Below the pieces are notes generated by a model, which was given only the letters and a program-made list of their open reading frames with translations, did not search any database and was not told the origin of the DNA. This document shows, one piece after another, positions 1,233 through 5,859 of a stretch of DNA of 20,085 bases. The translations under genes were made by a program, and so were the position numbers. Within the stretch, counting starts at the first letter, position 1. Every line of letters begins with the position of its first letter. Location of the stretch: IMG/VR virus record IMGVR_UViG_3300049737_000365, positions 1 to 20,085 of that record, one strand, 5' to 3'. The stretch comes from a virus.

Positions 1233-2156
1233 ATGGATTATACATTCCTACTGGGCTCTATTGAAAATTTGTTAGGCAAATCTCATAAGAGAGCAAGAGA
1301 TAATCACGCTTTCCATTGCCCTTTTTGCAATCATCATAAGCCTAAGCTTGAGATTAAGATGAGCACTAATGAACAAGGTCAAAATCCTTGGGAATGCTGG
1401 GTATGCCAAACTAAAGGACGTACAATAAGATCACTTCTTAAACAATTAAAAACTCCTAGAGATACTGCTAACGAGATATTAAAATACGTACCGAGAGGTT
1501 CACAAATAGAATATAAGCAGCTATCTATAATAGAGCTACCGAAAGAATACCAACCCCTCTATTCCGCTTCCAGTACTTCAGTTATAGCTAATCTAGTTAA
1601 AAAATACTTATATGAACGAGGACTTACCGACAATGATTTTATTAAATACGGTGTTGGATACTGTACAACTGGAGAATATGGAGGAAGAGTCATTATCCCA
1701 AGTTATACTTCATCCGGTACGCTCAACTTTTTTATTGCAAGAAGTTTTGATGGAAGCTACTTTAAGTACAAAAATCCTGAAGCTTCCAAAGACATAATAT
1801 TCTTCGAAAATCTGATTAACTGGAATGCACCTATTATTATATGCGAGGGAGTATTTGATGCTATTGCAATACGCCGAAACGCTATTCCTATATTGGGGAA
1901 GAGTATTTCTAAAGAACTTTATAAAAAGATTATAACAAGCAATGTAAGAGACATCTATATTGCCTTAGATAACGATGCTAAATCTAGAGCATTACAAATA
2001 GCAGAACAATTTTTAAATAATGGTAAAAGAGTTTTTATAGTTGAGATGAAGGATAAAGATCCTTCCGAAATGGGATTTCGAGCTTTTACCGAACATATTC
2101 AATCAGCAGAAGAGTTAGACCTGTCTCGTCTAATGCTGCACAAATTAGACCTATGA
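1233..2156 (+). CDS. DNA primase, T4 gp61-type (CHC2 zinc finger plus TOPRIM)
   Basis: This 307-aa protein should make the RNA primers for lagging-strand synthesis together with a replicative helicase. The N-terminus has a four-Cys zinc-binding site (C29, C32, C55, C58), the spacing expected for a primase zinc module. The central region includes YLYERGLTDNDFIKYGVGYC, typical of DnaG-type catalytic cores. The TOPRIM domain is visible as IIICEGVFDAIA (E205) and IALDNDA (D246 and D248), which would bind the catalytic metals. T4 gp61 is 342 aa, so the length is close. Its stop overlaps the next gene's start (ATGA), linking it to a nuclease gene. Placing a replication gene within this otherwise virion-oriented block differs from T4. 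Confidence 0.9.
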   Translation: MDYTFLLGSIENLLGKSHKRARDNHAFHCPFCNHHKPKLEIKMSTNEQGQNPWECWVCQTKGRTIRSLLKQLKTPRDTANEILKYVPRGSQIEYKQLSIIELPKEYQPLYSASSTSVIANLVKKYLYERGLTDNDFIKYGVGYCTTGEYGGRVIIPSYTSSGTLNFFIARSFDGSYFKYKNPEASKDIIFFENLINWNAPIIICEGVFDAIAIRRNAIPILGKSISKELYKKIITSNVRDIYIALDNDAKSRALQIAEQFLNNGKRVFIVEMKDKDPSEMGFRAFTEHIQSAEELDLSRLMLHKLDL

Positions 2157-2935
2157 TAAAACAAGGTATGAACATTCTCAAGCAGAATGAAAAAAAGAGG
2201 TTGGATTTTCAACCAGAGTTAAAACAAATTAATTTTTTAGATAGAAGAGTGTATAAGAGATCGGAAGGAGTATACTACCCATCTGTAACTACCATACTCC
2301 AGTATATGCCCAAAAATAAATTCTTTGAGTCATGGCTTAAGGATGTTGGGCATAGCGCCGATCTTATTATGAGAAGAGCTGGAAAAGAGGGTACTCAAGT
2401 TCATGAGGCAGCAGAATCGTTAGTATTAGGAGAAGAAATTTCATGGATGGACGACTATGGAAATGCTAAATATTCTCAATTAGTTTGGGAAATGATTTTA
2501 AAATTTCATGATTTCTGGACTACACACAAGCCGGAACTTATATCAGCAGAAGATTTTGTTTATTCAGATGAGCATAAATATGCAGGTACTGCTGATTTAG
2601 TTGTAAAGATGGATGGTGAAGTTTGGTTATTAGATATTAAAACATCTAATAGTATTCATAAATCATACGATTTACAGTTAGCTTCTTATGCAAAAGCATT
2701 AGAAGAATCTAAAGGTATAAAGATTGAAAGAACTGGAATTATTTGGTTAAAAGCTCAATCAAGAGGTCCTTCAAAGAAAGAAGGAGTATACCAAGGAAAG
2801 GGGTGGAAAATTAAAGTTATAGATGAAATTGACTATAATTTTGATTTATTTAAGACTATATACAAACTATATAATTTAGAGAACCCTACAGTTGAACCTA
2901 TTTATAATAGTTACCCAACTACTTTAAAATTATGA
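2153..2935 (+). CDS. PD-(D/E)XK nuclease, RecB/Cas4-like
   Basis: This 260-aa protein has the RecB-family nuclease signature. An N-terminal segment has YYPSVTTILQYMP followed by a helix with GTQVHEAAE. Then comes GTADLVV (D148), LLDIKTS (D161, K163) and the QLASY motif (Q175) that completes the active site. Such enzymes act as 5' or 3' exonucleases in phage recombination and DNA processing. It overlaps the primase gene by 4 nt (ATGA) and is itself overlapped by the lipoprotein gene by 4 nt. An alternative start is the ATG at 2168. The family call is secure; whether it is an exonuclease for recombination, host DNA breakdown or end processing is not determined by sequence alone. Confidence 0.85.
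   Translation: MIKQGMNILKQNEKKRLDFQPELKQINFLDRRVYKRSEGVYYPSVTTILQYMPKNKFFESWLKDVGHSADLIMRRAGKEGTQVHEAAESLVLGEEISWMDDYGNAKYSQLVWEMILKFHDFWTTHKPELISAEDFVYSDEHKYAGTADLVVKMDGEVWLLDIKTSNSIHKSYDLQLASYAKALEESKGIKIERTGIIWLKAQSRGPSKKEGVYQGKGWKIKVIDEIDYNFDLFKTIYKLYNLENPTVEPIYNSYPTTLKL
2899..2906 (+). promoter_or_regulatory. candidate TATTTATA promoter element inside the nuclease gene
   Basis: CTATTTATAATAG occurs 25 nt before the ATG of the lipoprotein gene, within the coding end of the nuclease gene. The same core and similar spacing occur before the genes at 7251, 9504, 17282 and 19201. It may give the lipoprotein gene its own transcript, although that gene is also coupled by ATGA. Chance occurrence is possible in DNA this rich in A+T. 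Confidence 0.3.
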
Positions 2936-3858
2936 AAAACTTTATAACATTATTATCCTTATTATTACTCACCTCTTGTGGTACAACATATAAGTTGACA
3001 ACTTTAAATTACGACCCAATATACGATAGTGCTGGTGATACAGTGGATGTAAGTGTTATAAATAATGAATTTGAACTTGCAAGAAAGTTTAGAACAGATG
3101 ATACATTTAGATGGAACTTTGCTAGATATGCAATGAACCAAGATCTAAGATGGCATTATGATTTCTACTGGAATAATAGAATGCACAGAAGTCCATTTAG
3201 ATCGCCATATGATTTTTATTGGAATTCACACCAATACTGGTGGAATTGGTCATCTAACTACTCTTTTAATTATGGATTCAACCATTGGAATACATTAGGA
3301 TTTAATGGATGGGGATGGAATCACTGGAATAGATACGATAGCTGGAGATGGGGTTACGGACATCCATTCTATAATAACTTCGGCTGGAGAAATGAAATGA
3401 ACGATTATGCATGGCGAAATAGAAATAGATCAAATACTGCTTACATAGTCGGTAGGAGAGGGAGTAATATAGCTAATTATAATAATAGGACCATAAGTGA
3501 TCAAGTAACTATTAGAAATAATAAACCTAGAAGAGTTATCCGTATAGATAATGTGGATAGGGTTATAAGAGACTTTAAAGACAAAGGTCTAGACGTAAAA
3601 ATAATTAATAACAATAACAATGATCAAATTAACAGATCTAATCTTAGAATCTACCTCAGGCCCGAAAGTGGTAGTAATGGCAGGGGGAGCTGGAGCAGGC
3701 AAAACGTACCTGTTAAGCCAATTGTCCCTATCATCACTCCCTCAAATAAACCCAGACAAGTATATAGAGGATCCGGATCATCCAGCGTACAACAATCTAG
3801 GGGCGGCAGCACGTCTAGCAGACAAAACGGCGGAGGAGCTAGCAGACAAAGGAACTAG
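2932..3858 (+). CDS. Trp/Asn/Tyr/Arg-rich lipoprotein
   Basis: This 308-aa protein starts with a bacterial lipoprotein signal peptide: a short basic start (MKN), a Leu-rich core, and a lipobox LLTSC with the lipidated Cys at residue 16. It should be exported and anchored to a host membrane. Residues about 60-170 are extraordinarily rich in Trp, Asn, Tyr, Phe and Arg (FYWNN, WWNWSSN, WGWNHWNRY), without obvious globular motifs. Residues 180-230 look like an ordinary folded segment with VIRIDNV and DVKIINN. The C-terminal ~79 residues are Ser/Gly/Arg-rich and disordered; they are encoded by DNA that also encodes the start of the next gene in another frame. The role could be lysis, superinfection exclusion or envelope remodelling; none is shown. 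Confidence 0.75.
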   Translation: MKNFITLLSLLLLTSCGTTYKLTTLNYDPIYDSAGDTVDVSVINNEFELARKFRTDDTFRWNFARYAMNQDLRWHYDFYWNNRMHRSPFRSPYDFYWNSHQYWWNWSSNYSFNYGFNHWNTLGFNGWGWNHWNRYDSWRWGYGHPFYNNFGWRNEMNDYAWRNRNRSNTAYIVGRRGSNIANYNNRTISDQVTIRNNKPRRVIRIDNVDRVIRDFKDKGLDVKIINNNNNDQINRSNLRIYLRPESGSNGRGSWSRQNVPVKPIVPIITPSNKPRQVYRGSGSSSVQQSRGGSTSSRQNGGGASRQRN

Positions 3859-4552
3859 TTTCGTTTGGGATACTACAGCTTCTAACCCTAAAAAGATTCA
3901 GTCTTTAGTAGATAAAGGATACAAAGTATTCATGGTAATGGTATACACTCATCCAATGATCTCTTATATTTCTAACTTTTCTAGAGCTGATAGAAATGTA
4001 CCTGCTTCAGCAGTATTTTCAACTTGGAGAAACGTTTACCAATTAATTGCTGATTATGATAAAATTACAAACGGTAATTTAGCTATTCATGTTTCCGATA
4101 GAGGAGGTAAATATAGTAAAGAAATAGAAGCATTTAATACTGCTGCTAAAAACGGACCTTCTGGTATAGAAGATTACTTGAAAAGATATAACGAAGAAAA
4201 CGGAATCGGAGGTTCTAGTTTTAGAAAACCTATTGAGTTAACTACTCAAGAAGAAGAAGAGTTTAAAAAACATATTGGTAGTTTAGATTATGATAAAAAT
4301 AACTATAGCGAAGATAGAGCTCTAAAAAAAGCATTTAAAGATGCTTACGATAAAAATGGAGTAGGACCTGGTCAAGATAAAATGAAAGAAGTTCTTAAAA
4401 AGTATAGAGATAGAAAAGCTAAACAGGATGAAAGAGAAGTAGCAGTATTAGATAATATTGCTGATATGTTGTTTAATGATAAGTTTCAAAAGCTTTTACA
4501 ACATGCTACTCCTAAAGAAATAGATTCAAAAGTACAAGCATTTTTAACATGA
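3620..4552 (+). CDS. P-loop kinase (zeta-toxin/AAA_33-like) with capsid-targeting-like N-terminus
   Basis: This 310-aa protein has a Walker A motif GGAGAGKT (residues 22-29, K28), then INPDKYIEDPDHP, FVWDTTASNP (Walker B-like) and an Arg-containing lid (NFSRADRN). This is the arrangement of zeta-toxin and polynucleotide-kinase-like P-loop kinases. The C-terminal half, from about residue 195, is a charged helical extension with EEEEFKKHI and YRDRKAKQDERE. The first ten residues, MIKLTDLILE, match the shared (I/L)-x-E leader; cleavage after E10 would leave a complete kinase domain. The start at 3620 lies 239 nt inside the lipoprotein gene, and no later ATG would retain the P-loop strand. The end overlaps the next gene by ATGA. 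The phosphate acceptor (nucleic acid end, nucleoside, peptidoglycan sugar) cannot be told. Confidence 0.82.
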   Translation: MIKLTDLILESTSGPKVVVMAGGAGAGKTYLLSQLSLSSLPQINPDKYIEDPDHPAYNNLGAAARLADKTAEELADKGTSFVWDTTASNPKKIQSLVDKGYKVFMVMVYTHPMISYISNFSRADRNVPASAVFSTWRNVYQLIADYDKITNGNLAIHVSDRGGKYSKEIEAFNTAAKNGPSGIEDYLKRYNEENGIGGSSFRKPIELTTQEEEEFKKHIGSLDYDKNNYSEDRALKKAFKDAYDKNGVGPGQDKMKEVLKKYRDRKAKQDEREVAVLDNIADMLFNDKFQKLLQHATPKEIDSKVQAFLT

Positions 4553-5859
4553 TAGCATTATACCCAGGAGCATTCAAACCACCTCATAGAGGTCATTTTA
4601 ACGTAGTAAAATCTTTACTCGACGGCTCTTATAATGGTTCTATTTATAATAAAGATAACTATAAAGAAAAAGGAGCTGATTTAGTTACAGGTAAATCAAA
4701 TGAAAAACCAGATATAAGTAAAGTAATTGTTTTTGTAGGTGCTGGAGAAAGAAACGGTATAGACAAAGACGAAGCATTGAGTATTTGGAATATCTATGCT
4801 AAATATTTAGGTAATGTAGAAATTTTAGACGGAGGAAGTAATCCAATGTTTGCTGCAAAAGATTATGCACAAGCAGATCCTGAAACTGGATTTGTAGCAG
4901 TAACAGGAGTAAGATCAGAAGAAGACTTCGTAGATTTAAGAAGAGTTACTACATTTAAAAATGCACCTAATGTACAGGGATTAGCTTTAGCTTCTAAACC
5001 AGGATCAGGAGTAAGAGCAACAGATTTTAGAAAGAGTATACTATCTGGTAATTTAGATACTATAACAGACTTTTTTCCTGAAGATTTGTCTAGAGAAGAA
5101 ATATTAAATATTTTAAACGATTTGAAAGATAAAATAGTAGCAGAAATATTATCATCTAATATCGAAGGATTTGTAGAAGGATATTTTACAGAAGAAAATC
5201 GATATAATAAAGACGGATATGACGAAGGTGATATTCGACTAATGGGTGATATGATTCTACCAACCGGTAAAATGGTTGTGCTTCAAGCAGAAGAAGACAC
5301 TTATAATAGAGGTTTATTAGTAACTAGTAATGAAGATAAAAGTTACGACGTAGCTTATTGGGCAGATGATAAAACTAAGCCTTATCCAATTGGTATAGAA
5401 ATAGACGGTAAAGAAGTAGCTAAAGATGCTACGATTGTTAAGTTTATGTTTCATCCAGAAATGAAAGAAGGGGTAGAACAATCTAAACCTGAATTAAAAG
5501 ATTATATTACTTCTCTGACTGAATATATGTTAGAATTAGGAATGAATATAACTCCTTTACCAGAAGTTAAATTAAGAAAAGATGAAGCAAATGCTTCTAA
5601 CTTTTTTGGTAAAACTGCATACTACGATCCTAACAGTAGAGAAATAGTATTATATACTTCAGGTAGACACGATAAAGATATTGTAAGATCATATGCTCAT
5701 GAAATGGTGCATCACATCCAAAACTTACAAGGTACTTTACATAATATACAGACACAAGATACAACTGCTGATAGTAAGCTTTTAGAACTTGAAAAAGAAG
5801 CATATACGTTAGGTAATATAACTTTTAGAAACTGGGAAGATAGTTTAAAAAATAACTAA
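4549..5859 (+). CDS. HxGH nucleotidyltransferase fused to an HExxH zinc metallopeptidase-like domain
   Basis: This 436-aa protein combines two catalytic signatures. The N-terminus reads MIALYPGAFKPPHRGH, the nucleotidyltransferase HxGH motif (H13, H16) of NMN/pantetheine/cytidylyl transferases. The partner motif lies at SGVRATDFR (R156), matching the usual ISSTxxR position. Residues about 200-330 form a linker or middle domain with SNEDKSYDVAYWADD. The C-terminus has AHEMVHH (H384, E385, H388), a zincin zinc-binding motif, with EKEAY (E417) as a plausible third ligand. The overlap with the upstream kinase gene (ATGA) suggests joint function, perhaps in nucleotide or NAD metabolism. It lacks the leader seen on its neighbours. 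The transferase substrate and peptidase target are unknown. Confidence 0.8.
   Translation: MIALYPGAFKPPHRGHFNVVKSLLDGSYNGSIYNKDNYKEKGADLVTGKSNEKPDISKVIVFVGAGERNGIDKDEALSIWNIYAKYLGNVEILDGGSNPMFAAKDYAQADPETGFVAVTGVRSEEDFVDLRRVTTFKNAPNVQGLALASKPGSGVRATDFRKSILSGNLDTITDFFPEDLSREEILNILNDLKDKIVAEILSSNIEGFVEGYFTEENRYNKDGYDEGDIRLMGDMILPTGKMVVLQAEEDTYNRGLLVTSNEDKSYDVAYWADDKTKPYPIGIEIDGKEVAKDATIVKFMFHPEMKEGVEQSKPELKDYITSLTEYMLELGMNITPLPEVKLRKDEANASNFFGKTAYYDPNSREIVLYTSGRHDKDIVRSYAHEMVHHIQNLQGTLHNIQTQDTTADSKLLELEKEAYTLGNITFRNWEDSLKNN

Follow-up and report, generated by a model that had tools for sequence, protein, structure and literature searches.

The 239 nt in which a predicted lipoprotein gene runs out of frame into a P-loop kinase gene very probably form a genuine and long-conserved overprinted overlap, where the first ~79 codons of the kinase gene supply the C-terminal tail of the lipoprotein. 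The sequence analysed, here called the window, is the 20,085 nt of the IMG/VR virus record IMGVR_UViG_3300049737_000365. The virus belongs to a marine family whose hosts are probably flavobacteria; the host assignment follows from the terminase, which shares 77% identity with that of Flavobacterium phage immuto (Immutovirus), the nearest cultured phage. The exonuclease is 71.5% identical to that of immuto and the primase-exonuclease order is the same, but immuto has neither the kinase nor the lipoprotein at the corresponding locus.

Organization of the Overlapping Genes

In the proposed arrangement, the lipoprotein gene lies between the exonuclease and kinase genes and would be read on, out of frame, into the latter. 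The features concerned, all on the + strand, are as follows.

2153..2935, +, PD-(D/E)XK exonuclease gene, upstream of the lipoprotein gene (PHROG 298, 1.3e-43)
2932..3858, +, lipoprotein gene (308 aa) for a signal peptide with lipobox Cys16, a body rich in W/Y/N and a basic, disordered tail rich in S/G/R/Q
2932..2979, +, signal peptide and lipobox LLLLTSC, Cys codon at 2977-2979 (read directly; C16 conserved)
2936..3612, +, exchangeable lipoprotein body (unalignable with sister phage L030; flanks align at 94% and 85%)
3600..3619, +, putative kinase initiation site, A-rich and unstructured (A at -3, -6, -12, -13; F. johnsoniae rules)
3620..4552, +, P-loop kinase gene, 310 aa, zeta-toxin/polynucleotide-kinase-like (PF06414, 8e-14; AlphaFold2; PDB fold matches)
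3620..3858, +, out-of-frame double-coding overlap, 239 nt; 78 sense codons and a stop in the lipoprotein frame
3620..3652, +, kinase N-terminal leader MIKLTDLILES, candidate capsid-targeting propeptide with L-x-E cleavage site (E10 invariant in 23 kinases)
3683..3706, +, kinase Walker A GGAGAGKT, on which the S/G/R-rich beginning of the tail is overprinted
3856..3858, +, lipoprotein stop TAG, formed by kinase codons Thr79 (ACT) and Ser80 (AGT)

The exonuclease 3' end and the lipoprotein start share 4 nt (ATGA). Both open reading frames of the long overlap lie on the same strand and the lipoprotein is read in the +2 frame of the kinase, each tail codon consisting of the wobble base of one kinase codon and the first two bases of the next. 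The initial annotation had placed 79 lipoprotein codons on the kinase gene; the out-of-frame overlap of 239 nt holds, but the 79 include the TAG stop, which leaves 78 sense codons. Other gene overlaps across the window measure 1-20 nt, as had been claimed. The G+C content of the overlap is 47.7% against 32.4% in the lipoprotein body, 30.4% in the rest of the kinase gene and 33.0% in the window, a richness matched by only 0.9% of 239-nt stretches. The local counts given earlier are right for positions 4321-4380 (19 of 60), but 3661-3720 contains 33 of 60 rather than 34. Downstream of the kinase, the gene at 4549-5859 has a nucleotidyltransferase-like N-terminus (PHROG 395, weak) and, in its C-terminal part, a HEMVHH motif like that of zinc proteases; its counterpart in immuto is larger and has extra domains.

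Distribution Among Relatives

In IMG/VR we found 80 kinase loci; two lipoprotein subsets gave a further 80 and 32 loci. These subsets served as profile queries, the 18 long lipoproteins taken together having no conserved stretches. Removal of kinases that were ≥95% identical left 62. The kinase +2 frame was open for 206-242 nt from an upstream lipobox ORF in 46 of these 62, but not in the other 16; the lipobox was present in all 46 upstream ORFs. The overlap is exactly 239 nt in 22 of the 46 relatives, most tails stop within a few codons of one common place, and 29 have the same stop at the same site as the window. IMG/VR contigs are fragments and not independent, and the one kinase counted per 95% cluster is still related to the others by descent.

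No cultured phage carrying the kinase or the lipoprotein was found, and the lipoprotein had no match in Pfam, PHROG or PDB and no homologue of known function was found. A host origin of the lipoprotein was sought by a genome-collection scan and in 248 Flavobacteriales genomes, and was rejected as only MAG contigs that seemed viral or contaminated were recovered. Two of the lipoprotein relatives are on contigs binned as a Woesearchaeota MAG (L083) and a Schleiferiaceae MAG (L084); gene content suggests that both are phage contigs, and L083 was probably mis-binned.

Selection on the Tail Frame

For kinase codons with four-fold degeneracy, we scored which tail residue a wobble T would create, and compared the overlap with the rest of the same genes. 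Where a stop would result, T was used at 0 of 519 sites in the overlap and at 581 of 1004 (58%) in the rest; where Cys would result, the counts were 1 of 328 and 203 of 527 (39%). Avoidance was graded for the other residues: Leu 1/77 against 127/307, Phe 5/121 against 252/556, Tyr 12/148 against 250/448 and Trp 37/260 against 84/294. Where a wobble T would create Ser, its use was near normal (111/286, or 39%, against 172/375, or 46%). The 16 relatives without overlap showed normal wobble use over the same stretch, with T at 77 of 157 stop-making sites. Codon families with a choice of first base were shifted as well: CTN accounted for 77% of Leu codons in the overlap and 40% in the rest, and CGN for 89% and 6% of Arg codons, respectively. 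GC3 was 0.45 in the overlap against 0.20 in the rest, and 0.21 against 0.22 in the relatives without overlap.

Given the kinase protein and the codon usage of the family, the probability that the tail frame is open is 1e-7 for the window, with a median of ~2e-7 over the 46 relatives. Chance is excluded as the source of the open frame. Since the wobble avoidance is all but complete for stop and Cys and slight for Ser, the controls are normal and tails have decayed where the overlap was lost, comparative evidence indicates that the tail frame is under protein-level selection; the lipoprotein tail is therefore almost certainly translated. The reading of 3620-3858 in two frames in the initial annotation is borne out by the way in which synonymous choices in the kinase keep the tail free of stops, Cys and large hydrophobic residues. 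Selection is visible in both frames, as residue-graded wobble avoidance in the tail and as the retained Walker A and fold in the kinase.

Between diverged pairs, the overlap did not exceed the rest of the gene in wobble identity, which counts against a role for the exact tail sequence. The tail sequence therefore drifts, and the residue class is what is kept. The same class occurs in dedicated tails (n=33), taken from related lipoproteins whose genes either precede the kinase gene without overlapping it or lie at other loci. Disorder-promoting residues make up 0.85 of overlapped and 0.84 of dedicated tails, net charge per 75 residues is +11.5 and +10.6, aliphatic residues are at 0.13 in both and Cys is ~0 and 0, respectively. 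Dedicated tails use Asn (25%) where overlapped tails favour Gln, Ser, Gly and Arg. A null tail from recoded kinases has 0.66 disorder-promoting residues, 6% Cys, ~10 stops per tail and an SGR fraction of 0.38. In the AlphaFold2 model of the window lipoprotein, residues 117-308 have pLDDT <50 and nothing past residue 116 is confident.

Selection thus keeps the tail frame open, and its residue class constant, through the kinase wobble bases and the Leu and Arg codon families. The class so kept is polar, basic and disorder-promoting, without Cys and with few aromatic or aliphatic residues. Overprinting may have replaced a dedicated tail of the same kind, sparing ~240 nt. The lipoprotein is predicted to be anchored in the outer membrane, from which its basic tail would extend into the periplasm as a binding arm or flexible linker; this disordered tail could bind envelope polymers or nucleic acid.

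Alternative Explanations

The tail could be a tolerated read-through, its frame kept open by nothing more than chance or base composition, with the body being the sole part that matters. This would fit the free drift of the exact sequence and the bias of the +2 frame towards S, G and R that the many G-starting kinase codons create without selection (the null SGR of 0.38), and a relative with a short lipoprotein that stops at the kinase start, without such a tail (L072), manages without it and counts against our explanation. Still, the absence of any stop-making wobble among 519 sites, an avoidance graded from stop, Cys, Leu, Phe, Tyr and Trp to hardly any for Ser beyond what base composition gives, the chance probability of ~1e-7 and the decay of unused tail frames make mere read-through very unlikely. 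Wobble bases might also be biased by a regulatory element or RNA structure at the 5' end of the kinase gene, with no second protein, and the segment is indeed locally G+C-rich. Since avoidance is graded by residue, neither plain base composition nor RNA structure is a likely cause: the bias follows the tail residue that a T would create and leaves Ser-making sites nearly unaffected, and in other respects diverged relatives differ freely at their wobble bases. The kinase start region is also unstructured and the signal is absent from relatives in which no lipoprotein enters the frame, so that we give an RNA element next to no weight.

A further possibility is that programmed frameshifting joins the frames to a lipoprotein-kinase fusion, besides or instead of two separate proteins. 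The tail and kinase frames are one base apart, and one contig (L075) joins both through an indel at the tail end into a 520-residue fusion. This contig is the single case and was set aside, as its close relative L050 retains the stop and the fusion is therefore likely an assembly or sequencing error. Furthermore, the type and place of the stop codon vary over a few codons and the kinase has its own ATG in an A-rich context in nearly all overlap lineages, which makes a frameshift product improbable to a high degree. We thus retain the overprinted overlap as the explanation.

The P-Loop Kinase and Its Probable Translation Start

The kinase frame had been said to carry conserved motifs, and it does. 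Its product matches the Pfam family Zeta_toxin (PF06414, 8e-14), and Walker A takes up residues 22-29, within the overlap. The AlphaFold2 model, built with 23 relatives, has a mean pLDDT of 86.7, and its Foldseek matches in the PDB include 4gp6, 1gvn and 3q8x (E 5e-6 to 4e-5), the best fold matches being bacterial polynucleotide kinase and zeta toxin. Walker A and the fold are shared with zeta toxin, PezT and polynucleotide kinase, whereas the N-terminal phage leader and a C-terminal helical region are additions. Zeta toxin proper has a paired antitoxin gene and a UDP-sugar substrate.

The leader, MIKLTDLILE in its first ten residues, has low model confidence (pLDDT 44), and Glu10 is invariant in 23 relatives. 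It resembles the capsid-targeting propeptides (CTS) described for T4 (PMC9026906). Similar leaders occur on window genes starting at 410, 3620, 12163 and 14250 (also 759, 6050, 7251 and 8612), with examples MKILDIILE, MIKLTDLILE, MHKLEKLILE and MNLIDRVILE, and the leader pattern is found near the start of 6 of 20 window genes against 0.6% of internal 14-mers. Because of the T4-like leader and its likes on other window genes, the kinase may be packaged and injected; by this analogy, which we regard as a lead, several other leader-bearing proteins may be packaged in the head as well.

The kinase start is located far inside the lipoprotein gene, whose own frame has no stop close by. The 20-nt stretch preceding this start is A-rich and is read mostly as Asn codons in the lipoprotein frame. 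In Flavobacterium johnsoniae, A at -3, -6, -12 and -13 promotes initiation (PMC6847099), and the window has A at all four positions. Over the 46 relatives, the mean A-score was 2.6 at kinase starts and 1.4 at random lipoprotein-body positions, and the MFE was -2.4 kcal/mol at kinase starts against -7.3 kcal/mol in lipoprotein bodies. Such an A-rich, unstructured context makes internal initiation plausible, and kinase translation probably starts independently within the lipoprotein gene at this site of the Flavobacterium (Bacteroidota) type.

Gains, Losses and Decay of the Overlap

On a tree of the non-overlapping kinase part, the overlap state changes 9 times, and at least 8 of these changes are forced by well-supported branches. 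With two distant kinases as root and equal costs, an ancestor without overlap is favoured, with 9 changes in all. One early gain followed by several losses is among the cheap readings of the tree; recombination within the kinase blurs the number of gains and losses. The arrangement has thus changed repeatedly, the tail frame decaying once the lipoprotein stops using it. In L038, which has no lipoprotein, the tail frame is recognisable yet broken by stops, and in L048, where the lipoprotein has its own tail, the tail frame of the kinase has decayed as in L038.

The initial annotation had named relatives in which the lipoprotein ends before the kinase as evidence against double coding. Such relatives were found (L040, L043, L048, L055, L105, L113, L117, L120 and L128), but they leave the overlap standing. 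Since usage in their first 75 kinase codons is normal, or is decaying towards normal, and the tail frame contains stops, these nine lineages are natural controls.

In some relatives the exonuclease gene directly precedes the kinase gene and the lipoprotein is absent; as the kinase occurs in lineages without the lipoprotein, it is probably the older occupant of the locus. According to a published rule, the older frame retains the codon usage of the genome (PMC3744397). With a correlation to the window's other genes of 0.07 for the overlapped kinase part and 0.49 for the tail frame, this rule would make the tail ancestral, which is the wrong way round here and counts against our explanation. The overlap therefore offers a worked counter-example to identifying the older frame by codon usage.

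Comparison With Known Overlaps

Spanins of the Rz/Rz1 type include an outer-membrane lipoprotein encoded out of frame on a neighbouring phage gene, with overlapped and separated members in the family (PMC6139136). The present lipoprotein, with its lipobox in 46 of 46 cases, likewise lies out of frame on an adjacent gene. In contrast to spanins, its partner is a soluble P-loop kinase and not an inner-membrane i-spanin with an N-terminal transmembrane segment, its gene is the first of the two and is overprinted at the tail rather than at the start, and W/Y/N-rich bodies are swapped over one fixed tail. A spanin pair of the known overlapped kind was ruled out by the kinase partner with Walker A at residues 22-29. 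The overlap also resembles the general class of de novo viral overprinted frames with disordered products (PMC3744397), as a conserved enzyme gene carries a new frame whose product is a disordered stretch of low complexity. It differs from this class in that related genes have dedicated tails which the overprinted stretch matches in make-up, and in that codon usage is more distorted in the older frame than in the newer.

No published equivalent of the lipoprotein-kinase overlap was found in the literature searched. The case for a long same-strand overlap in a phage usually rests on a single genome. Here dozens of diverged relatives replicate it, and there are also natural losses, copies that have decayed and versions of both genes that do not overlap, so that the target of selection in overprinting can be measured unusually cleanly, namely residue class and not sequence. 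The analysis adds to the initial annotation that the overlap is widespread, that the class of the tail is conserved and its sequence is not, that dedicated tails exist elsewhere, and that two types of body share one tail.

Exchange of Lipoprotein Bodies

The window and its sister phage L030 share 94% identity as far as the last bases of the exonuclease gene (2935). There is no similarity across the lipoprotein body, which is long in the window and short in L030, and identity resumes at 85% from 3613, a point 7 nt ahead of the kinase start. When bodies are split by length into two classes, the class changes at least 7 times on the tree of the 46 overlapped kinases. When profiles of the two classes were compared, the match was confined to the ten residues that follow the lipid-bearing Cys. 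Homology between them was considered and nothing convincing was found beyond the lipobox start and a shared low-complexity composition; a few weak cross-class pair matches are probably due to composition. As judged from these alignments the two classes are dissimilar, with a distant common origin still possible. Dissimilar upstream bodies thus share one kinase-borne tail, which stays with the kinase whichever body precedes it.

This suggests that an overlap can serve as a shared out-of-frame exon beneath interchangeable upstream genes. We lean slightly towards a model in which the kinase gene would act as a fixed out-of-frame C-terminal exon, so that any body recombining in the right frame gains a basic disordered tail; the overlap would then favour modular exchange, with the kinase bearing the codon cost.

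Both lipoprotein types also occur at a second locus (contigs L091, L093, L096, L106, L108, L116, L132, L164, L185 and L188), ~22-25 nt before a gene whose product mostly starts with MDNF or MDKF, and have dedicated tails there. This locus looks like another home site for the same exchangeable lipoproteins.
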